Positions 3,291 through 63,715 of a stretch of DNA of 64,000 nt are shown in pieces; position 1 is the first letter of the stretch; the number at the start of each line of letters is the position of its first letter. A program made the translations under genes and the position numbers. Source of the stretch: Alphaproteobacteria bacterium (GTDB lineage Bacteria; Pseudomonadota; Alphaproteobacteria; Rhizobiales; Xanthobacteraceae); assembly GCA_037200445.1 (NCBI GenBank), contig JBBCGH010000001.1:3658001-3722000 (forward strand), read 5' to 3'. A model generated the notes under the pieces. The model was not told the origin of the DNA. It ran no database searches and was given only the letters and a program-made list of their open reading frames with translations.

Positions 3291-4406
3291 ATGAGCGACG
3301 CAATGGGCCCGGCTGAAGCGGAAGCCGGCGGAATTCTGACCATCGACCTTGCGGCGATCGCGGCGAACTGGCGCGTGCTGCGGGCGCGCGCGACGCCCGC
3401 GCAGTGCGCGGCGGTGATCAAGGCGGACGGCTATGGCTGCGGCATTGGCGAGGTCGCAGCCGCGCTTGTGAACGCGGGCTGCGAGACGTTTTTCGTCGCC
3501 AACCTCGCCGAAGCGCGGCGCGCGCGCGCGGCAGCATCCGGCGCGACGATCTATGTTCTGAACGGGCTGCTGCCCGGCACGGCATCGGCCTATGCGGAAG
3601 CAAATCTTCGGCCCGTGCTCGGCAGCATCGTGGAGCTGGAGGAGTGGAACGCGTTTCGCGCGGCGTCGGGATGGCATGGCGAGGCCGCGCTGCACTTCGA
3701 CACCGGCATGAACCGGCTCGGCTTTCCGCACGAAGAAGCCGCGCAGATCGCAGGAGGGCTCGGCCGCGATCATGGCATCGCGCTGGTGATGAGCCATTTC
3801 GCGTGCTCCGAGGAAGAGCATCCGCTCAACGCGCTCCAGATGGAGCGCTTTCGCGCCGTGCGCGCGCAGTTTTCCGGCATCGCGGGGTCGCTGGCGAATT
3901 CTTCCGGGATTTTTCTTCCGCGCGAAGCACACCACGATCTCGTGCGTCCCGGCGTTGCGCTCTATGGCGCCAATCCCACGCCGGGCAGGCCGAACCCGAT
4001 GCAGGCCGTCGTCACGCTGCAGGGCCGGATCGTGCAGCTGCGCGAGGTCGATGAAGGCGCGACCGTCGGTTACAGCGCAACCTGGACCGCCAAACGGCCG
4101 ACGCGGCTTGCGGTCGTTTCGGTCGGCTACGCGGATGGATTTCTCCGCGCCGCGAGCGCGAGCGACAGGAGGCCTGGTGCCGAGGCGATCGTGGCCGGGC
4201 AGCGCTGCCCGATTGCGGGGCGCGTCTCGATGGACCTGATCGCGATCGACGTGACCGATGTGCCGGCCCCACCCGGGCGCGGCGAGTCGGTGACCCTGCT
4301 CGGCGAAGGCATCACCGTGGACGACCTCGCGGACCGCGCCGGCACCATCGGCTACGAGGTGCTGACCAGCCTGGGACGGCGCTACCGGCGGATTTACCGG
4401 TCCTGA
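3291..4406 (+). CDS. alr: Alanine racemase
   Basis: PLP enzyme interconverting L- and D-alanine for peptidoglycan. The PLP lysine is K44 within AAVIKADGYGCG, the family signature. The second-half catalytic tyrosine is expected in GATVGYSATW (about residue 255), and the C-terminal beta domain carries VSVGYADGF and GRVSMDLIAIDVT. Length is 371, normal for the family. Only 31 bases separate it from dnaB, suggesting co-transcription. Its TGA is followed immediately by a perfect palindrome and then by an SOS-like box that belongs to radA. No anomalies. Confidence 0.96.
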   Translation: MSDAMGPAEAEAGGILTIDLAAIAANWRVLRARATPAQCAAVIKADGYGCGIGEVAAALVNAGCETFFVANLAEARRARAAASGATIYVLNGLLPGTASAYAEANLRPVLGSIVELEEWNAFRAASGWHGEAALHFDTGMNRLGFPHEEAAQIAGGLGRDHGIALVMSHFACSEEEHPLNALQMERFRAVRAQFSGIAGSLANSSGIFLPREAHHDLVRPGVALYGANPTPGRPNPMQAVVTLQGRIVQLREVDEGATVGYSATWTAKRPTRLAVVSVGYADGFLRAASASDRRPGAEAIVAGQRCPIAGRVSMDLIAIDVTDVPAPPGRGESVTLLGEGITVDDLADRAGTIGYEVLTSLGRRYRRIYRS

Positions 4407-4420
4407 TCAAACTGTTTGAT
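4406..4420. promoter_or_regulatory. Perfect 7+1+7 palindrome after alr
   Basis: ATCAAAC-T-GTTTGAT starts on the last base of the alr stop codon. It is a perfect inverted repeat with a one-base centre. It could be an operator for a dimeric regulator of radA or part of a weak terminator; no T-run follows, so an operator seems likelier. It lies 5 bases upstream of the GTTC-N7-GTTC box. Confidence 0.4.
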
Positions 4421-4424
4421 GGAT

Positions 4425-4439
4425 GTTCTTGATTTGTTC
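4425..4439 (+). promoter_or_regulatory. Putative LexA (SOS) box of radA
   Basis: The sequence GTTCTTGATTTGTTC is an exact GTTC-N7-GTTC direct repeat, the published alphaproteobacterial LexA motif (for example in Rhodobacter). It ends 46 bases before the radA ATG, in the only intergenic gap of this block. The match and its position are seen in the sequence; LexA binding is inferred. RadA is a recombination protein, which makes SOS control plausible. Confidence 0.6.
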
Positions 4440-4485
4440 ATAGGTGATCGCTAGGCTTTGAACGAATCCGAAGCCGTAGTCAGCC

Positions 4486-5898
4486 ATGGCCAAGCACGCC
4501 CCCTCCTTCATCTGCCAGAACTGCGGTGCCACGTACGGCCGCTGGTCCGGCAAGTGCGAGGCCTGCGGCGAGTGGAACACGATCGCGGATGAGGGCGCGC
4601 CCGATCGCGCGGGCCCGGGCAAGCCCGCGCGCAAGGGGCGCGTGTTCGCGCTCCACCCGCTTGCGGGCGAAGCACACGACGCTCCGCGCCTCCCCTCCGG
4701 CGTGCCCGAGCTCGACCGCGTGACCGGCGGCGGCTTCGTGCGCGGCTCGGTGCTGCTGATGGCGGGCGATCCCGGCATCGGAAAATCGACGCTGCTGATC
4801 CAGGCCGCCGCCGCGCTCGCCAAGACCGGCCACCGCGCGGTCTACATTTCGGGCGAGGAAGCGGTCGCGCAGGTGCGGCTGCGCGCCGAGCGGCTCGGGC
4901 TCGCCAAGGCGCCGGTCGAGCTCGCCGCCGAAACCTCGGTCGAGGACATCATCGCGACGATGAGCGAGGGCAAGCCGCCGCGCCTCATCGTCATCGACTC
5001 GATCCAGACCATGTGGACCGATGTCGTCGAGTCCGCGCCCGGCACGGTCACGCAGGTGCGCGGCGCCGCGCAGGCGCTGATCCGCTTCGCCAAGCGCTCC
5101 GGCGCCGCGATCATCCTGGTCGGCCATGTCACCAAGGACGGCCAGATCGCAGGACCCCGCGTGGTCGAGCACATGGTCGACGCGGTGCTGTCGTTCGAAG
5201 GCGACGGCGCGCATCGATTTCGCATCCTGCGCGCGGTGAAGAACCGCTTCGGCCCAACCGACGAGATCGGCGTGTTCGAGATGACCGGCGCAGGCCTGCG
5301 CGAGGTGCCGAATCCGTCCGAACTGTTCCTCTCCGAACGCGACCTCGGCAGTCCCGGCACGGTCGTGTTCGCCGGCATCGAGGGCACGCGGCCGCTGCTC
5401 GTCGAGATCCAGGCGCTGGTCGCGCCAACCTCGCTCGGCACACCGCGGCGTTCCGTCGTGGGCTGGGATTCAAGCCGGCTCTCGATGGTACTTGCCGTGC
5501 TCGAGGCGCATTGCGGCGTGAAGCTCGGCGGGTACGACGTCTATCTCAACGTCGCGGGCGGCCTGCGCATCAATGAGCCGGCCGCCGACCTTGCGGCTGC
5601 CGCTGCGCTGGTCTCCTCGCTCGCGGGCGCGTCGCTTCCCGCGGAAGCGGTCTACTTCGGCGAAGTCTCGCTCTCGGGCGCGGTGCGCCCGGTGGCGCAG
5701 GCCGCGGCGCGGGTCAAGGAGGCCGCCAAGCTCGGCTTCACCCGCGCCTTCGCGCCCGAAGCCGCGCGCGGCGAGAACGGCGGAGAGACCAGCCTCGCGC
5801 TCACCGCGATCGGCTCTCTCGCCGATCTCGTCGCCGACATCGCGGCGACCTCGAAGCGGACCAAATCGCCCGTGCGTATCGCCGGACAAGACGGGTGA
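4486..5898 (+). CDS. radA: DNA repair protein RadA (Sms)
   Basis: RecA-related ATPase that promotes branch migration and D-loop extension during recombinational repair. A four-Cys zinc finger (C10, C13, C24, C27: CQNCG and CEACG) is followed by Walker A GDPGIGKS at 94-101, the RadA-specific KNRFG at 252-256, and a C-terminal Lon-protease-like domain lacking an obvious protease active site, as usual for RadA. Length 470 is typical. The start ATG is preceded by an 80-base spacer with a palindrome and a GTTC-N7-GTTC box, suggesting separate, damage-inducible transcription from alr. cvpA follows 95 bases downstream. Confidence 0.96.
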   Translation: MAKHAPSFICQNCGATYGRWSGKCEACGEWNTIADEGAPDRAGPGKPARKGRVFALHPLAGEAHDAPRLPSGVPELDRVTGGGFVRGSVLLMAGDPGIGKSTLLIQAAAALAKTGHRAVYISGEEAVAQVRLRAERLGLAKAPVELAAETSVEDIIATMSEGKPPRLIVIDSIQTMWTDVVESAPGTVTQVRGAAQALIRFAKRSGAAIILVGHVTKDGQIAGPRVVEHMVDAVLSFEGDGAHRFRILRAVKNRFGPTDEIGVFEMTGAGLREVPNPSELFLSERDLGSPGTVVFAGIEGTRPLLVEIQALVAPTSLGTPRRSVVGWDSSRLSMVLAVLEAHCGVKLGGYDVYLNVAGGLRINEPAADLAAAAALVSSLAGASLPAEAVYFGEVSLSGAVRPVAQAAARVKEAAKLGFTRAFAPEAARGENGGETSLALTAIGSLADLVADIAATSKRTKSPVRIAGQDG

Positions 5899-15369: not shown

Positions 15370-18312
15370 TTGGTTGAGCCGACCGTGGAGCCCGCATCGA
15401 AGACAATCAAGAGACGCGGTCCGTTGGATTGGATCGATCGCCGTTTGCTGCGCTCGGGGCTCTATGCGCTTTTGCTTGTCATTCTTTTCTTGCTGTTCAC
15501 GACGACCGAATGGCTGATCGAGCACTACCTGTCGGCCAGCAAGGATCACAGCCTCATCGTCGCGTTGTCGATCGCTATCGGCCTCGCGATTGTTTTTCAA
15601 ACGTTCCACAAGCGCATCGAGCATACCGTCGAAGGCTGGCTGCACCACCGTCTGCATGAGCGCGAGAAAGGACTCACGGCGCTTACGCAGGAAATCACGC
15701 TGATCCGCGATCGGAATGTGCTTGAAAAACGCGTTATCGAGCGCCTCGATCAGCTGTTGGCGACTGAGGGTGCCGCGCTTTATCTCAATCAAGCCGGCGA
15801 GAATTTTCAGCTTGCCTACGCGGCGGCCGCCTCACACCCGAGAGAAATCTCCGCCACCGACCCGGCGGTTATACATCTTCGCCTGCAGCGCGGCTCGATT
15901 GTACCGCGGTCGACCGGCTCAAACCTCTCGGCGCCGCTCGTTTGGCCGGTCCATTTGCATGACCGCCTGATCGGTTTCATCGCCAGCGGTGAACGGCCTC
16001 ATAAGGAAAGCTTCGATGAAGGCGAAATCCATGCCGTGGCAGAGTTGGCCAAGACGCTAGGAACAGCGCTTGCACTGATCGACCCTACGCTCGCAGACAG
16101 ACAACAGCCTGACATCGCCGAAAAGCGGAACAATCTTCCGCAATCCCTGACGCCGCTGATCGGAAGAGAATCCGAACTGGCCGAGGTCAAATCGCTGCTG
16201 GAGACAACAAGCCTGCTGACGCTCATAGGCGCCGGCGGCATGGGCAAGACGCGCTTTTCGCTGGAAGTCGCAGCCGCTCTGTTGGATCGTTTCAAGGACG
16301 GGGTGTGGTTCATCGCGCTCGCGCCCGTGGGCGATCCGGCCCTCGTAACGCGCACCGTCGCTGAAGTTCTGGGCGTGCACGAGGAAGCGGGCCGCCCCCT
16401 GCTCGATACCTTCCTGGAGTTTCTTCGCCGCCGAAATCTCCTGCTCGTTCTCGACAACTGCGAACACCTGGTCGAAAGCTGCGCTCGCTTTGCTGCGGCG
16501 GCGCTGCGCGCCAGCAGCGGGCTACGCATCCTCGCCAGCAGCCGCGAAGCATTGGATATCGCGGGCGAATTGGCGTGGCGCATGCCACCATTGCCGACGC
16601 CGGACGCCGCTGCGCGCGAATCCGGCGATCAGCTTTTGCAATATTCCGCCGTTCGACTGTTCGTCGCGCGTGCCGCATTCGCCTCTCCGTCGTTTCGGCT
16701 GACTGCCGAAAACTCAGCTGCCGTTGCACGCATCTGTCGTCAACTGGACGGTATTCCGCTTGCGCTCGAACTGGCGGCGGCGCGGGCCAAGGCTCTGCGG
16801 GTCGAACAAATCGCCGAACGGCTGGACGATCGCTTTCAGCTCCTCACCGGCGGCAATCGCACGGCGTTGCCACGCCAGCAGACGCTGCGTTCGACGATCG
16901 ACTGGAGCCACGACCTTCTCAACGATTCCGAGCGAGTTCTGCTGCGGCGGCTTTCGGTATTCGCCGGCGGCTGGACGCTGGAGAGCGCGGAAGCCGTTTG
17001 CGCTGGCGAGGGCATCGAGTCCGGTGAGGTGCTCGACCTTCTGACTCGCCTAGTCGACAAGTCGCTGGTGGTGCCCGACGACAAGGCAGCCGAACCGCGC
17101 TACCGGATGCTTGAGACGATCCGCCAATACAGCCGCGAGAAGCTTGCTGCGGCAAATGAAGAAGAGCGAACGCGCGACCGGCATCTCGCGTTCTTTGCTG
17201 ATCAGGCGGGGGCATTCGAGCCGCACTTCTATCATCCGGATCAAATGCTCTGGTACGCGAGGGCCGACGTCGAATTGGATAATTTCCGGGCGGCGCTGGA
17301 CCATTCGCTGACTGCAGCGCGGGTGCGCGCCGGGATGCACGTCGTCCTCGGACTGCACCGGTATTGGGTGGCGCGCGTTTACTGGCGGGAGGCGAATGAA
17401 TGGCTCAAGCGCCTGCTCGCGATACCGGAGGGAGAGCAAACGCCGTTGCGGGCCCAGACGATATTCGTGGCCGGCCACATCACGAATTACTTCGATCCGA
17501 TACAGGCTGGCGTTTTCGCCGAGGATAGCCTGCGCCTTTCTCGAACGCTCGACTACAAGGAAGGCATCATCAACGCATTGTGGCTGATCGGATGGCTGCG
17601 TCAGCCAATGCTCGATGGCACGGCGGTCCCATATTTTGAGGAGTGCATTCGTCTGGCGCGTGAGACCGGCTACACATGGGGTGCGATGCACGCTTACGCC
17701 TGGTACGGAATGTACCTGATCGGCATCGGCGATTACGAAGCCGCCAAACCGGCACTGCGGGAGGGGATTGTTCAGGCGGAGCGGATTGGCGGCGATTCCT
17801 CATTGATCGGACGGTGCGAGGGAAATCTCGGACAGGCAGCGCTGCTGCAAGGGGACTTCGTCGCCGCAAAAGCCAGTCTCGACAAAAGCTTGACGCTGCA
17901 AAAGGGAGCGGGGAATCGCAATGGAATGGCGGAATCGCTTTGGCTGCAAGGCAGACTGGCATTGCGTCAGAAGGACTTCCCGTTGGCATTCAGCAATCTC
18001 AAGGAGAGCCTTGCTCTCTACCGGACCTACACGACTTCCGTATGGGTGACGCGGGGGCTTGTCTATATCGCCATCGCTCATATTGGTTCCGGCCATCTTG
18101 CGCCCGCGGCGCGATTGGTCGGCGCACTGGACGCACGCGACCGCACGCTCGGTTCGATCAACATGCACCTCGGTTCGCTCGCTTCTATCGCCGAATACAA
18201 AAGCGCCGTGGAAAGCCTGCGGGCAACGATGCCGGCCGCGGAATTCGATGCCGCGTGGCAAACGGGACAGAGGCTGGCTGTCGAACCATCGATCGAGCTT
18301 GCTCTGTCGTAG
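15370..18312 (+). CDS. Membrane-anchored STAND ATPase with GAF-like and TPR regions
   Basis: 980 residues with an unusual layout. Two transmembrane helices (about 28-49 and 57-76) are followed by a linker helix and a GAF-like segment (about 100-235; LDQLLATEGAALYLNQ, FDEGEIHAVAELAKTLG). Next comes an NB-ARC/LuxR-type ATPase (about 255-560) with LIGRESEL, Walker A GAGGMGKTR, LLLVLDNCEH (Walker B plus sensor), ILASSREAL and GIPLALELAAARAK. The C-terminal 400 residues are helical TPR-like repeats. There is no HTH at either end, unlike MalT/AfsR-type regulators. A TTG at 15370 is the upstream start; a GTG at 15385 is an alternative. It stands alone downstream of the der/SDR scar. Role unknown; a signal-sensing NTPase switch is likely. 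Confidence 0.88.
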   Translation: MVEPTVEPASKTIKRRGPLDWIDRRLLRSGLYALLLVILFLLFTTTEWLIEHYLSASKDHSLIVALSIAIGLAIVFQTFHKRIEHTVEGWLHHRLHEREKGLTALTQEITLIRDRNVLEKRVIERLDQLLATEGAALYLNQAGENFQLAYAAAASHPREISATDPAVIHLRLQRGSIVPRSTGSNLSAPLVWPVHLHDRLIGFIASGERPHKESFDEGEIHAVAELAKTLGTALALIDPTLADRQQPDIAEKRNNLPQSLTPLIGRESELAEVKSLLETTSLLTLIGAGGMGKTRFSLEVAAALLDRFKDGVWFIALAPVGDPALVTRTVAEVLGVHEEAGRPLLDTFLEFLRRRNLLLVLDNCEHLVESCARFAAAALRASSGLRILASSREALDIAGELAWRMPPLPTPDAAARESGDQLLQYSAVRLFVARAAFASPSFRLTAENSAAVARICRQLDGIPLALELAAARAKALRVEQIAERLDDRFQLLTGGNRTALPRQQTLRSTIDWSHDLLNDSERVLLRRLSVFAGGWTLESAEAVCAGEGIESGEVLDLLTRLVDKSLVVPDDKAAEPRYRMLETIRQYSREKLAAANEEERTRDRHLAFFADQAGAFEPHFYHPDQMLWYARADVELDNFRAALDHSLTAARVRAGMHVVLGLHRYWVARVYWREANEWLKRLLAIPEGEQTPLRAQTIFVAGHITNYFDPIQAGVFAEDSLRLSRTLDYKEGIINALWLIGWLRQPMLDGTAVPYFEECIRLARETGYTWGAMHAYAWYGMYLIGIGDYEAAKPALREGIVQAERIGGDSSLIGRCEGNLGQAALLQGDFVAAKASLDKSLTLQKGAGNRNGMAESLWLQGRLALRQKDFPLAFSNLKESLALYRTYTTSVWVTRGLVYIAIAHIGSGHLAPAARLVGALDARDRTLGSINMHLGSLASIAEYKSAVESLRATMPAAEFDAAWQTGQRLAVEPSIELALS

Positions 18313-53094: not shown

Positions 53095-53168
53095 TGGGGG
53101 ATAGTTCAACGGTAGAACTGCGGACTCTGACTCCGTCAATCTAGGTTCGAATCCTAGTCCCCCAGCCA
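53095..53168 (+). tRNA. tRNA-Gln (anticodon CTG)
   Basis: A complete cloverleaf is visible: acceptor TGGGGGA / TCCCCCA (53095-53101 and 53158-53164), D stem GTTC/GAAC, anticodon stem GCGGA/TCCGT with loop CT-CTG-AC (anticodon 53127-53129), T arm CTAGG-TTCGAAT-CCTAG, discriminator G and an encoded CCA. It reads glutamine CAG codons. Confidence 0.97.
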
Positions 53169-53541: not shown

Positions 53542-54399
53542 ATGAAAACCTGGACGTTCGAAGAACTGCATGACGAAAACGAAAAAAATGCACTCGGGCT
53601 CCAGTACACAATAGCTCAGCGAGACCGATTGAGGCTGCTACTGCGCATTATTGGGGCAACCGCAAAGGGTCTGATCACGGTCAGCGCCGAGGGTGCGACC
53701 GGCGTCGGCGGCGAGTCTGAGGCAGACCTGCCGGACATCATAACCGCGCTTCTGGAAAGCCCCGCCGAACGTCACCAGGATATTTTCGCCCTTCTGATCA
53801 ACGGTGGGAAGCGCAATGGATATTTTGTCGAGTTTGGCGCGTGCGACGGGCTGGCGGCGAACAATACGGTCATGCTGGAACGACGTTTCGGCTGGAAAGG
53901 TATCCTCGCAGAACCAGACAGGTTTTGGCAGGAACGGTTGCCGTTGAATAGAACGGCCATCATCGACAAACGCTGTGTCTCATCGGAGACGGGCCGGTAT
54001 CTGGATTTCTACCAGTCGGACCGTCCAGGGAATTCCTCACCTGACTCGAGCCACGCTTATTTGGGAGGCGTGGTGGCCTCATACCAGGTGGAAACGGTGA
54101 GCTTGTTGGATCTTTTGAAAGAGCACCGTGCACCGAGGTTTATCGACTTTCTATCGGTCGACACCGAGGGGCACGAAAAAGCGGCCCTCGCCAATTTCGA
54201 CTTTGATCAATACCGCTTCGGATTCATCTGCGTGGAAGAACACGAAGGCGTGGCCGCTGCTGATAGCGTAGAGCCGATACTGCAGAACGCAGGCTACACG
54301 GTCATATTTCCACGCGAAGAAGGACGCCCTATTCCTATGCAGATTACAGGCGTCGATAAGTTTTTTGTGCCGAGCAATCACCCCACGACGGGGTGGTGA
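53542..54399 (+). CDS. FkbM family methyltransferase
   Basis: 285 residues. The FkbM domain (about 85-275) shows GYFVEFGACDGLAANNTVMLE (SAM site, split near VEFGACDG), WKGILAEPDRFW, VSLLDLLKEH, FLSVDTEGHEKAAL, and VEEHEG, all typical. These enzymes O-methylate sugars or other small molecules. The coding sequence is visibly AT-richer than its neighbours, and it lies just after a tRNA, so recent acquisition is possible. No glycan genes are adjacent. Confidence 0.88.
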   Translation: MKTWTFEELHDENEKNALGLQYTIAQRDRLRLLLRIIGATAKGLITVSAEGATGVGGESEADLPDIITALLESPAERHQDIFALLINGGKRNGYFVEFGACDGLAANNTVMLERRFGWKGILAEPDRFWQERLPLNRTAIIDKRCVSSETGRYLDFYQSDRPGNSSPDSSHAYLGGVVASYQVETVSLLDLLKEHRAPRFIDFLSVDTEGHEKAALANFDFDQYRFGFICVEEHEGVAAADSVEPILQNAGYTVIFPREEGRPIPMQITGVDKFFVPSNHPTTGW

Positions 54400-59360: not shown

Positions 59361-60644
59361 TCAGCCTGATGCAAGTGTTACTCGCCGCGCCGTAATGCAG
59401 CGGTGCAGTTCGGAAAAACCAAGGTTGAAGCTCGTCAGCGCGGAGGCGGAGAGGCTGTCCTTGATCCCCTGCGCGTACACGGCGTCGAAGGCCGCATCGG
59501 CATCGCGTTCGAGCTGATCGAGGGTGGGCACGTCGGGCGCGGCGCGCGCGGCGGCCAGCAGTTCCTGCATCTTTCGCAACGGCGCCTGCCCCCCGCCATC
59601 GCGCTGCCCGCCGAAGTATCCGAATACGGCGACCACGACCGAGCCGAGCCCGCTCATCAGAAATGCCCCGAGATAAATCCAGTCGCTGTAGCGATCGAGC
59701 AGGTTCTTCTGATCGCCGTTCACATAGGCGCGCGTGCCGGGGTGAATCAGAAACGGCGTCGGGTCGTCCAAGTCCGGCGTCTCCATCAGGCCGGCGCCGG
59801 CGACGGCCGCGTTGATGTTCTGCCGAATGAGATAGAGCTGCTTCACCAGCTCTGCGATCTTGTCGGAGTCGCTTTTCTGCGTGGCGACAAGGCGCACCGA
59901 GAACGCAAGCGTCTCCAGGCTCTCGGGCGGACGCGGCGGGCGTCCGCCGAAGGCGCCCTGCTCCACCTCGAGCTTTTCAAGCGCCGGAATGCGCTTGGCG
60001 ATCGCGTTGGCTTCCTCGATCTCGATGAAATTGATCGCGCCTTTGACGGCACGCGCCACCTCGGCAACGACCTCGCTGATCTGCTTGGAAGCGACCGGCC
60101 CGACCGCCAGAACCGCGTCGACCTTCTTCTGGCGTAGCGCGTTCGCCATTTCGGCCGCCGGCATCATCAGATACTTCGCCTTGTCGCGCGGTATTCCGTA
60201 GTAGTCCAGCACCGGACCCAGCAGACCACTGTCGATCGGGCCCTCGGCGACGATGCCGAGCATTCCGTTCGGCAGGTCCGAGACCTTCTGTATCTTGCCG
60301 ATCTTGGGTGCGAACAGCACGGCTGCCTCGCGCCGCACGATCAGCACGGTCTCTGCCTCGCCTTGCAACGCTGCATCCGAGCGCAGCACCGCCAGTTCGG
60401 CCTTGCCCGCAGCCATCTGTTCGAGCGCCGCCTTGCCATTCTCGACGGTCACAACGTCGATGCGCACCGGCGCCCGCGCGGTGCGCAGCATGTCGCCGGC
60501 CTGACCGAAGACCCGCTGATCGAGCGTATTGGCGGAGGGTATCGCAACCTTGAACGACGTCGGGCGCACGGCGAAGTGAACCACGCCGGCGACAACGGCG
60601 AGCGCCGCGAGAGCGACCGCACAGGCTGCGAGGAATGCGCGCAC
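59361..60644 (-). CDS. TAXI family TRAP solute-binding protein, membrane-anchored
   Basis: 427 residues. An uncleaved-looking N-terminal helix (about 5-27), a TAXI-type periplasmic domain (about 30-315; FKVAIPSANTLDQRV, GKAELAVLRSD, IGIVAEGP-like GMLGIVAEGP), then a second helix (about 325-348, WIYLGAFLMSGLGSVVVAVF) and a cytoplasmic coiled tail. Two anchors make it atypical for a soluble TRAP receptor. No TRAP permease is nearby, so it may be a sensor or orphan. Upstream of the PlsB-like gene, probably one transcript. Confidence 0.88.
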   Translation of the reverse strand: MRAFLAACAVALAALAVVAGVVHFAVRPTSFKVAIPSANTLDQRVFGQAGDMLRTARAPVRIDVVTVENGKAALEQMAAGKAELAVLRSDAALQGEAETVLIVRREAAVLFAPKIGKIQKVSDLPNGMLGIVAEGPIDSGLLGPVLDYYGIPRDKAKYLMMPAAEMANALRQKKVDAVLAVGPVASKQISEVVAEVARAVKGAINFIEIEEANAIAKRIPALEKLEVEQGAFGGRPPRPPESLETLAFSVRLVATQKSDSDKIAELVKQLYLIRQNINAAVAGAGLMETPDLDDPTPFLIHPGTRAYVNGDQKNLLDRYSDWIYLGAFLMSGLGSVVVAVFGYFGGQRDGGGQAPLRKMQELLAAARAAPDVPTLDQLERDADAAFDAVYAQGIKDSLSASALTSFNLGFSELHRCITARRVTLASG

Positions 60645-60845
60645 GAACCCTCCGTCCCCGAAAGGATAGGGTCAATCGCGCGCGGGTCAAATCGGCTAGT
60701 TCCCGCCGCCCGCACAGGCCGCCGCAACGGGCTTTTTCACCGGGACGGCAAGCGCCGCGACGCGACAAAAACGGTGTCGGGGCAAAAGACACACCGCCAA
60801 TGCGCCGCGATAGCTGGACACCAGTGCTCCGACTGCTGATGGAGA

Positions 60846-60874
60846 TTGGAATACGCCATCTTTGATTGTATAGT
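60846..60874 (+). promoter_or_regulatory. Sigma-70-type promoter of the two-gene unknown operon
   Basis: TTGGAA (60846-60851), a 17-base spacer, then TATAGT (60869-60874) match the housekeeping consensus at 4/6 and 5/6 positions with ideal spacing. The start of transcription would be near 60881, about 27 bases before the ATG at 60908. Confidence 0.55.
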
Positions 60875-60907
60875 GTCGCACCGACTAATTCAGAACGGGC
60901 CACCGCT

Positions 60908-61453
60908 ATGAGGAGACTCGCAATCGGAATCATCCTCGCGCTTTGCGCGGCTGGCGTACGAGCAGAAGAATTAAAGCCGACTCTTGAGCAATGTACTTGC
61001 ATCTTCGAGGAAACGGCCCCGCCGACCTCCCAACGCGCCCGTGCCGTCAATGCCACTCTCTGCGTCCAGACATTGGACAAGAAGCAAAAGTATTGCGAGC
61101 TGACAATTGCGTGTTTAAGACACAATATCGGTCCGAATTGCGGAGCTTCCTCTGATCCGAAACGGTCAATTCTGCCTCTGTACAACCTCCACCAGGACGA
61201 AGTCTCGAAAGTAACCCCCAAAAATCCGCGAGTGGTCGAACAGCTCGCCAAGCAAGCCAAAGAGATCTCAACGCTGACCGAACAATCTGGTAAAATAATC
61301 GATGCGTGCGTGGACGCTTATATCAAGCAGTCGCCTCTCAAGGAGGCTCTGAAAGACAACAAAGTTTCATGCGGGCTTAACGACGGTTGGCTGTCGATTG
61401 CCTTCAATTTTGAGGGTTGGCTCGTCAAATTCTCGTTTGGCCCGCGACAATGA
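60908..61453 (+). CDS. Exported Cys-rich protein, unknown
   Basis: 181 residues. A signal peptide (MRRLAIGIILALCAAGVRAE, cut at VRA-E) precedes a mature domain with seven Cys (EQCTCIF, TLCVQT, KYCELTIACLRH, PNCG and later ones) and a helical middle (QLAKQAKEISTLTEQ). It ends in a beta-like stretch (GWLSIAFNFEGWLVKFSFG). No family is recognised. The base composition is distinctly more AT-rich than the flanks, suggesting transfer. The stop overlaps the next start as ATGA, so the two genes form a coupled operon. Confidence 0.78.
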   Translation: MRRLAIGIILALCAAGVRAEELKPTLEQCTCIFEETAPPTSQRARAVNATLCVQTLDKKQKYCELTIACLRHNIGPNCGASSDPKRSILPLYNLHQDEVSKVTPKNPRVVEQLAKQAKEISTLTEQSGKIIDACVDAYIKQSPLKEALKDNKVSCGLNDGWLSIAFNFEGWLVKFSFGPRQ

Positions 61454-62097
61454 GCGTACCGCCAGGCCCAACGTCTTCGCCATCCCGCTGGCGAGGCTTT
61501 ATTTGGTTTGTGTTCGGCACTGTTTTCGGCACTGTTGGGGGTTGGCTTGTAGACGACTGGGTTAAGCCCCCGATCGTCGCGGCTATCGATGATACCGCGC
61601 AAAAATATGTGCCTTGGGACTGGCCAGTCGTGCAGATGATCGCACCGAATTCAACCGCCTTCGCAGCAACCAAAGTCGATGGCTGCAGCAATGGGAACCT
61701 AGCACGCTTGGTAGGCAAGGCTGACTCGCTCGGACTTCGCTTTACTGACAAGAAACAGGTCGCGGATGCTTATCTTTGCCAGAATTGGAAATATACCGGC
61801 ACGCCTCGCGGCATTCTTGAGGCAATGGCCATCAGATTTGATCAATGTTTCGCAATAGTGCAGCACGCGGGCGAAAAAACCTTTGAGATACGAGCTCAAA
61901 AAGCACACGTTTGCAGAACAGAGTATGCGGAAAACAAAGACAACAATGAATGGGAGAAAAAGCCTGGCACAGCCACGTTACTGTGCGTAGAGGCGGCGGT
62001 CGGTGGACCTCTCTCTACAACCGAACCTTTCGCGCGCATGTGCTCGGACAAAGTTTTGAGCGACGTCGGCATTACCGCCAGAACAAAGAAGAAATAA
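61450..62097 (+). CDS. Membrane-anchored protein, unknown
   Basis: 215 residues starting in ATGA overlap with the previous gene. One transmembrane helix (about 16-36, GFIWFVFGTVFGTVGGWLV) is followed by an exported domain with five or six Cys (VDGCSNG, YLCQNWKY, DQCFAIV, HVCRTEY, LLCVEAA, RMCSD). The N-in anchor and the partner's signal peptide place both mature domains in the periplasm. The AT-rich composition matches its partner. No family recognised; the pair may assemble into one complex. Confidence 0.78.
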   Translation: MSVPPGPTSSPSRWRGFIWFVFGTVFGTVGGWLVDDWVKPPIVAAIDDTAQKYVPWDWPVVQMIAPNSTAFAATKVDGCSNGNLARLVGKADSLGLRFTDKKQVADAYLCQNWKYTGTPRGILEAMAIRFDQCFAIVQHAGEKTFEIRAQKAHVCRTEYAENKDNNEWEKKPGTATLLCVEAAVGGPLSTTEPFARMCSDKVLSDVGITARTKKK

Positions 62098-62128
62098 CAA
62101 CGTTGCGCCGCCGACACGTGCCCGATGC

Positions 62129-63715
62129 TTAGTGGCCTCCGCCAACCACTGCCGCGGGTTTCCTCACCAGCACCGCCAGCACGGCGAGCACGGCGAGCAC
62201 GGTGAGCGCGAGGAACACGTCGGCATAGGCCATGACGGCGCCCTGCCGGTGAACGACCTGCGTCATTTGCTTCACCGCCATCGCCTGCGCATCGCTTCCG
62301 AACTGGCCGAGACGCGCCGCCATGTTGTTGAGCGCCTCGACCGCCATGGGCCGCGCGAACGTGAAGTTCTCGTGCAGGCGCGCAATGTGCAGGTCGGTGC
62401 GGTTGTTGAGGAACGTGTAGATCCAGGCGAGCCCGACCGCGCCGCCGAGATTGCGCATCAGGTTATAGAGGCCGGAAGCGTTCTTGACGCGGTCGGGCGA
62501 GAGCGTGCCGAGCGCGACGTTGTTGATCGGAACGATCGCCAGCATTAGCCCGATGCCGCGGAAGATCTGCGGCCACAACAGTTCCCAGAAATCCCAGTCG
62601 CGCGTGAGATACGTCATCCAGTATGTGCCGAGCGCAAAGAACGCGAATCCGGCCATCAGCATGAAGCGCGGATCGACCTTGCCGGTCATCCGTCCGGCAA
62701 AGGGCGCGGTCAGGAACATGGCGAGGCCCGATACGAACATGGTCTCGCCGATCATCAGCGCGTCGTAGCCGCGGATCTGACCGAGATAGAGCGGATAGAG
62801 CAGCGTGAGGCCATAGAGCCCGATGCCGAGCACGAACGAGAACAGGCTGCCGAGCGCAAAGTTGCGGTCCGTGAAGGCGGAGAGATCGACGATCGGCTGA
62901 CGCGCCGTGAAGGCGCGGTAGAAGAACAGCAGCGCGGACAGGCCCGACACCCAGGCCATCAGCAGGATACTGTCGTCGCCAAACCAGTCGTTGCGCGGCC
63001 CCTCTTCGAGCACGTATTCGAGTGCGCCAAGGAAGCCGGCCATCGACAAGAGACCAACCCAGTCGAAATTCTGAAACAGCCTGGTGTCCGGCTTGTCGAA
63101 GTCGATCAGCAAGAAAGCCGCGGCCGCGACCACGATGCCGGGGATGATGTTGATGAAGAACAGCCAGTGCCAGGAGAGCGCATCGGTCAGATAACCGCCG
63201 ATGGTCGGGCCGACCGTCGGCGCCAGCGTCGCCACCATGCCGATCAACGGCGAGATGATGCCGAGCTTGGAGCGCGGGAAGATCGTGAACGCGGTCGCGA
63301 ACACGGTCGGGATCATCCCGCCGCCGATGAAGCCCTGCACGGCGCGCCAGAAGATCATCTCGTTGATCGAACTGGAGAGACCGCACATCAGGCTCGCGAG
63401 CGTGAAGCCCGCCGCCGAGATCGTGAACAGGTAGCGCGTGCCGAGGGCGCGCGAGAGAAGCCCGGAGAGCGGAATCATCACCACTTCGGCGATGAGATAG
63501 GCAGTCTGCACCCAGGAGATTTCATTACTGCTGGCGGCAAGTCCCGCCTGGATTTCGGTGAGGGATGCCGAGACGATCTGGATGTCCAGGATCGCCATGA
63601 ACATCCCGAACACCATGAAGAGGAACGTGATCAGCCGACGCGGATCGATTGCATCCGCGTCAGTTGGAGCGGGCTGGGGGACTGCGCCGGCGGTAAGGGT
63701 TGCGGCTTCGGCCAT
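62129..63715 (-). CDS. DHA2 family MFS efflux permease (EmrB-like)
   Basis: 528 residues, 14 helices. Hallmarks: MAILDIQIVSASLTEIQAGL (motif D1), WVQTAYLIAEVVMIPLSGLL, RAVQGFIGGGMIPTVFA and TLAPTVGPTIGGYLTD (motif C). The C-terminus has a LAVLAVLAVL slippage-type repeat. It is followed, 16 bases upstream, by an EmrA-like membrane-fusion gene, so the two form a tripartite drug-efflux system with a TolC-type channel from elsewhere. Confidence 0.93.
   Translation of the reverse strand: MAEAATLTAGAVPQPAPTDADAIDPRRLITFLFMVFGMFMAILDIQIVSASLTEIQAGLAASSNEISWVQTAYLIAEVVMIPLSGLLSRALGTRYLFTISAAGFTLASLMCGLSSSINEMIFWRAVQGFIGGGMIPTVFATAFTIFPRSKLGIISPLIGMVATLAPTVGPTIGGYLTDALSWHWLFFINIIPGIVVAAAAFLLIDFDKPDTRLFQNFDWVGLLSMAGFLGALEYVLEEGPRNDWFGDDSILLMAWVSGLSALLFFYRAFTARQPIVDLSAFTDRNFALGSLFSFVLGIGLYGLTLLYPLYLGQIRGYDALMIGETMFVSGLAMFLTAPFAGRMTGKVDPRFMLMAGFAFFALGTYWMTYLTRDWDFWELLWPQIFRGIGLMLAIVPINNVALGTLSPDRVKNASGLYNLMRNLGGAVGLAWIYTFLNNRTDLHIARLHENFTFARPMAVEALNNMAARLGQFGSDAQAMAVKQMTQVVHRQGAVMAYADVFLALTVLAVLAVLAVLVRKPAAVVGGGH

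Follow-up and report, generated by a model that had tools for sequence, protein, structure and literature searches.

The majority of the bacterial defence systems known so far strike once the DNA is inside, in the cytoplasm. Kiwa, a two-gene defence, works at the membrane, with KwaA as its membrane component. Entry itself is blocked by Spackle of phage T4, an exported, disulfide-bearing periplasmic protein which inhibits the tail lysozyme gp5 (PMC7677548). We have carried out an analysis of two genes, here called A and B, from a stretch of 64,000 nucleotides (the window), and the explanation that we put forward, tentatively and at slightly short of an even chance, is that A-B is a horizontally mobile, translationally coupled two-gene periplasmic module with an envelope-acting role in defence. 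The pair is arranged in the window as follows:

59361-60644, minus strand: flanking gene, NMT1-like
60801-62100, strand not applicable: AT-rich segment, 48-59% G+C per 100 bases versus 60-71% in the steps on either side
60846-60874, plus strand: sigma-70-like promoter candidate, TTGGAA, 17 bases, TATAGT; 9/12 matches, about 34 bases upstream of the start codon of A
60908-61453, plus strand: gene A, 181 aa; Cys-rich protein predicted to be soluble and exported by Sec
60908-60964, plus strand: predicted signal peptide of A, residues 1-19, VRA/EE, from hydropathy and an AxA-like pattern
61450-61453, plus strand: overlap of A stop and B start, shared ATGA
61450-62097, plus strand: gene B, 215 aa; predicted N-terminal membrane anchor plus six-Cys domain
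61495-61551, plus strand: residues 16-34 of B, the predicted membrane anchor, with a hydropathy peak of 1.64 and a positive charge on the N-terminal side
62129-63715, minus strand: flanking gene, MFS transporter

The original prediction had described an AT-rich gene pair in a GC-rich background, overlapping by ATGA and served by a good promoter of its own, and the first two of these points stand. The genes do share bases 61450-61453, and their G+C content is 52.4% versus 64.3% for the window, with a third-position G+C of 0.57 versus a mean of 0.82 over 43 proxy genes, among which the frame of A itself is counted; the profile of the segment thus differs from that of the chromosome. The edges of the segment are abrupt, the G+C in 100-base steps going from 0.68 to 0.53 near 60.8 kb and from 0.51 to 0.71 near 62.1 kb. 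Indeed, A+B is the AT-richest 1.2 kb of the window, and 1190-base windows below 56% G+C begin only at 60.5-61.5 kb. In respect to the promoter, a site is present at 60846-60874, but calling it good was an overstatement: a scan of 3 kb on both strands gave two sites scoring 9/12, versus 0.8 ± 0.7 in shuffled sequence, and the candidate is therefore weak.

Using hydropathy we predict that A is exported and B anchored at its N terminus. Protein A starts with MRR and a hydrophobic stretch, followed by VRA/EE, which is the pattern of a Sec signal peptide. In six of the seven A proteins E or D comes directly after an AxA-like site, and the seventh has, by eye, LSA/EN. Protein B has one hydrophobic stretch (residues 16-34) with two basic residues ahead of it and no second stretch above the threshold; within this predicted anchor, a 12-base near-tandem repeat (window 61509-61532) encodes VFGTVFGT. 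There are nine cysteines in A, one of them within the signal-like part, and six in B, all C-terminal to the hydrophobic stretch. Six cysteines are common to all seven sequences of the A family, five in invariant columns and one, placed by eye, shortly before a GWL/KWL motif, and six beyond the anchor are found in 6/6 members of the B family, the fourth and fifth of window B aligning ambiguously owing to an insert. The earlier claim that both proteins place Cys-rich domains in the periplasm, one secreted and one anchored, is thus borne out as to the N-terminal hydrophobic segments and the cysteines, the location itself being a prediction from hydropathy. Single-sequence structure models, with a mean pLDDT of 35.5 for A and 42.7 for B, are too poor to read.

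Neither window protein reaches the cut-off of any Pfam family, no PADLOC model matches them, and in respect to IetAS membership they are likewise without a Pfam AAA or S8 match. The same holds for ten of the eleven proteins of the relatives (described below) searched against Pfam, where the best match was a single DUF5957 (E 0.0016), and all 13 A/B proteins are without a match in NCBIfam. Against PHROGs, nine of the ten A/B proteins searched gave no match and one gave a chance-level match at E 0.027. In sequence searches of the PDB, B gave no match and A gave five tRNA ligase sequences at E 0.004-0.017; as these cover 52 profile positions only, we have taken the likeness as chance. The same judgement was made for other weak Pfam matches. 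Window B has a local match (residues 140-174, E 0.0019) to PF23986 (Pam3_gp59, a phage protein), but at 19 bits versus a cut-off of 27, and this family is not listed for the five B relatives at E up to 1. Single B relatives match DUF5957 at the E value given above and FixQ (0.46), and single A relatives match DUF7808 (0.12) and DUF7311 (0.41). The view that neither protein is recognisable is therefore upheld for Pfam, NCBIfam, PHROGs and PADLOC as searched, and, judging from their sequences, two conserved protein families that are without a model in these libraries are now defined, together with their cysteine patterns. Five accession or locus-tag strings of two relatives had no mention in the literature searched by those strings. 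As for phages, neither the window proteins nor the relatives nor the profiles found a relative in phage records or viral contigs, including a tblastn search of four A/B queries (P0001, P0002, P0010, P0013) against 50,697 phage records, and there is consequently no sign of use by phages.

Of 101 genomes searched, only the one that holds the window matches A and B. No convincing match to either came from 385 genomes of the class, the genome contigs scanned with the window proteins gave no relative, and a profile of A, with two rows for 150 genomes of the order and three rows for 385 of the class, returned the own genome only. A relative came from tblastn of window A, which reached plasmid pRapFH23a of Rhizobium acidisoli at E 0.01, at a locus of two hypothetical genes that likewise overlap by ATGA. 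Starting from these two genes, pSF83666d of Sinorhizobium fredii was found (E 4e-18 for A, 2e-26 for B), and a search with B, run separately, reaches the same two plasmid records as R. acidisoli A. In Rhizobiaceae, a set defined via G083, for which we infer the family from an rpoB nearest that of Shinella (88%), A is found in 5/394 genomes at E ≤0.01, four of them strong: G717 (2.6e-48), G934 (1.8e-40), G672 (9.7e-37) and G733 (3.7e-18). Both A and B are present in the first three, and in G733 A is open and B is broken by a frame change, possibly an assembly error. We thus count six intact pairs with the window, the relatives being five intact loci plus G733. The pair is patchy, with four strong occurrences in 394 Rhizobiaceae genomes and the own genome alone among 101.

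Several candidates were not retained. The fifth Rhizobiaceae match, G826 (E 0.005), has one internal stop and was left uncounted, and Shinella H8 was dropped as its match is the frame of an rpoB-like gene. Also dropped were L007, a 10-residue chance match within a phage frame that by eye resembles a tail tape measure, and the class-level L003 and L004 (E about 0.003), the latter after reading and the former on score alone. Four more Rhizobium records, two of which were read closely, match the C-terminal part of A only and have no B match. Such a C-terminal remnant is retained in the R. gallicum-type replicons L008 and L009 (about 5001-5189), followed in L008 by an IS110-like transposase gene, named by eye.

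The window proteins are distant from these relatives, with identities of 18-25% for A and 19-22% for B, and up to 28% in a two-sequence alignment. Pairwise BLASTP gives 7e-11 for A and, for B against the R. acidisoli protein, only a 10-residue match, while hhalign against profiles of the relatives built without the window gives E 2.4e-10 for A and 4.1e-7 for B. We have also run hmmsearch on 834 window frames plus 2502 shuffled decoys: the A profile ranks window A first at 4e-13 (next 5.9), and the B profile ranks window B first at E 0.022 (next 1.8). The B match would be weak by itself and is carried by adjacency to A, since the top frame for the B profile is exactly the one overlapping A, which makes chance very unlikely. 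In 6/6 intact pairs, window included, A is followed by B on the same strand, overlapping or at most 3 bases apart; the junction is a 4-base overlap in the window, and overlaps of 4, 8, 8 and 8 bases or a 3-base gap in the five relatives, the 8 bases of G717 depending on a chosen TTG start with an earlier TTG possible. The pair thus recurs as a unit, in the same order and tightly coupled, at five other loci including plasmids and an island, which supports the transferred two-gene module that had been proposed, with a function common to both genes as a presumption. That order, coupling and cysteines are all kept at these five loci also refutes the idea that an AT-rich scar happens to hold two spurious open reading frames side by side; the lack of a Pfam family above the cut-off and of any match beyond the own genome among 101 would speak for it, and we give it a practically negligible probability.

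Were A an exported, envelope-acting toxin and B its membrane-anchored periplasmic immunity protein, one could also expect a secreted Cys-rich protein of small size with an anchored partner coupled closely behind it, mobile settings, and such high divergence between window and relatives. We consider this reading quite unlikely, as no toxin family was matched in the libraries searched and as the state of G733, where B is broken while A is open, is the opposite of what an immunity gene would lead one to expect and counts against a toxic A restrained by B, allowing for the possible assembly error; the four Rhizobium records having the C-terminal part of A and no B match point the same way.

We return to the proposed mobile defence module. 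Its five intact relatives are found on two plasmids typed conjugative, in an integrative island, at a locus with an integrase and a tRNA gene, and on a 4.1-kb contig (G672), where the four neighbours have no Pfam match. The settings of the others, with G733, are:

R. acidisoli pRapFH23a: gene order TniQ/TniB/transposase, CHAT, IetS, IetA, A-B, M41-peptidase AAA, metallophosphoesterase, KwaB-like
G733: IetA (5.6e-87) directly divergent from A; IetS split over two frames
G717: integrase, tRNA-Ser at 4359-4448, ThsB-type TIR protein (2.5e-60)
G934 island (L017 1335-17376): the tRNA-Arg end is repeated exactly over 49 bp, at 1335-1383 and 17300-17348, and bounds 16 kb with an integrase
S. fredii pSF83666d: plasmid typed conjugative

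In R. acidisoli the PADLOC matches are 7.6e-37 for IetS and 3.2e-67 for IetA, both directly divergent from A, and 1.5e-14 for the metallophosphoesterase as PDC-S10, with the annotated KwaB-like gene about 5 kb from the pair. The cargo of the G934 island comprises M41-AAA plus metallophosphoesterase, A-B, a CAP12-type TIR (2.8e-7), PDC-S28 (E 0), DUF3800 and an Mrr/M78 protein, and this 16-kb stretch of L017 is an integrative island with several candidate defence genes. An M41-AAA plus metallophosphoesterase pair lies near A-B in these two separate elements (L005 7283-9869 and L017 5390-8291), the best aligned pieces being 48% and 52% identical between them, and is possibly a defence module of its own. 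Two further details concern the genomes G733 and G717. In L019 5533-10100, the G733 locus, IetS in two frames and a broken B together with open IetA and A indicate either a decaying island or assembly errors. In L016 87-1151 (minus strand), at the G717 locus, a Y2_Tnp-like N-terminal match (8.9e-8) and the ThsB-type TIR lie in one open frame, which is a fusion or has an overlong start. For S. fredii, comparison of six neighbours with PADLOC gave no match for five and one at E 0.0089, taken as chance; the annotation has a HigA antitoxin, a DNA methyltransferase and a DUF2357 gene about 10-15 kb off and an abortive-infection gene about 26 kb off.

The two plasmids typed conjugative raise a further alternative, that of an exclusion or maintenance module of conjugative elements, which would block a second plasmid or stabilise its own element, and the neighbouring IetAS is known from Ti plasmids, as a locus for plasmid stability or incompatibility. 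This we judge very unlikely. A location in or beside a transfer cluster, as for entry exclusion, was not found in the stretches viewed: no transfer gene is annotated in 31 kb before and 12.8 kb after the pair on pSF83666d, all beyond 28 kb of the record, nor in the 48 kb viewed of pRapFH23a, from gene tables that are incomplete for both. Moreover, the pair is also chromosomal in the window genome and in a tRNA island.

The relatives are thus conserved as a pair, keep their cysteines and their N-terminal hydrophobic segments, and lie in mobile settings; the putative role in defence is read from the neighbourhood alone. Known or candidate anti-phage genes, of which the original prediction had no sight, occur within 10 kb of the pair in four of the six relatives, with none in S. 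fredii and on the 4.1-kb contig of G672: IetAS twice, a ThsB-type TIR once, and PDC-S28 with a CAP12-type TIR once. IetA is rare: five genomes, about 31 Mb together, hold five matches below 1e-50, a count that includes the G733 copy beside A and lies outside R. acidisoli; weaker matches, which all 14 control genomes give too, were taken as ordinary AAA proteins. The probability that a random point falls within 1 kb of IetA is about 3e-4, and because of this rarity two of six loci within 1 kb of it clearly exceeds what random placement would give. A random gene of a defence island is, however, the fairer null, and versus that null the data show island membership and not a shared mechanism. The association by neighbourhood in the six relatives fits any island cargo, so that it leaves the defence role unproven.

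Such considerations, together with the window copy itself, bring in the alternative of a passenger: a mobile pair with a host-adaptive job in the periplasm, such as repairing the envelope or shielding it from antimicrobial peptides of host or soil, whose presence in the same islands as defence genes would be incidental. Islands bear mixed cargo, periplasmic Cys-rich proteins have many roles, and the window copy stands by itself: from 48.2 to 63.7 kb, the ten window frames compared have no defence domain in Pfam, the matches that they do have being metabolic, transport or of unknown role. We regard this alternative as unlikely, though deserving some weight, since four of the six relatives have known or candidate defence genes within 10 kb, two of them with IetA directly beside the pair, and since what the separate settings have in common is defence genes and not metabolic ones.

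In what was scanned around the window copy there is no integrase nearby, no tRNA-end or att repeat and no clear transposon end. Among repeats of 12-30 bases, the search found two inverted pairs and seven direct families. Two of the latter flank the segment (60587-60760 and 62173-62220), and these imperfect (67-94%), G+C-rich repeats of 16-30 bases are read as low-complexity sequence, a remnant being possible. An empty site was sought by DNA search in 20 relatives, none of which gave both flanking genes on one contig, and the four that were read more closely have other genes around. The rhizobial copies of the pair have 53-59% G+C, close to their own flanks (54-62%), and the window pair (52%) is nearer to them than to the genome it lies in (64%), which is what transfer of the two genes would lead one to expect. 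Elsewhere in the window there is a second AT-rich gene (53542-54399, plus strand; 55% G+C, GC3 0.63) with an FkbM methyltransferase domain (4.8e-15), just after a tRNA-Gln (53095-53168) of whose end no repeat was found.

If A-B is indeed an envelope-level defence, A would be exported by Sec and, on folding under the oxidising conditions of the periplasm, form up to three conserved disulfides. B would be an inner-membrane protein whose own six-Cys domain faces the periplasm, and A and B would bind each other. As suggested by the neighbourhood, the pair would then form an envelope barrier versus phages or other incoming DNA, in which A might meet the incoming tail tip, the tail lysozyme, DNA or an inner-membrane protein used for entry, while B might keep A at the entry site or relay a signal to the membrane. 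A bolder form of this explanation, possible though we lean against it, is that A-B is the first described all-periplasmic two-gene anti-phage system, a secreted disulfide-rich sensor or blocker with a membrane-anchored partner. It would travel through Rhizobiales on islands and conjugative plasmids, where IetAS, Thoeris-type TIR, Kiwa-like and PDC-S28 systems would add to its protection. If this is true, the envelope would have a first line of its own, an exported mobile pair that moves together with cytoplasmic systems. A-B would then be a small, concrete and testable candidate in nitrogen-fixing bacteria, and even with another role it would leave two conserved families, newly defined down to their Cys patterns.

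As to Kiwa, a KwaB-like gene lies near the R. acidisoli pair, but window A and B are without a match to the PADLOC models. IetAS shares loci with A-B in R. acidisoli and G733, but IetA and IetS carry AAA and Peptidase_S8 domains and A and B carry neither, so that IetAS is a neighbour and not a relative. The working mode of A-B may resemble that of the superinfection-exclusion proteins of phages, as cargo of islands and plasmids instead; with these, Spackle included, the likeness is in working mode only, no homology having been found for the ten A/B proteins compared with PHROGs. Spackle is likewise a small exported periplasmic protein with a disulfide (PMC7677548), export and disulfides being predictions for A-B, but it acts as one protein, encoded by a phage and 75 aa long in its mature form, whereas A-B is a pair borne by islands and plasmids.
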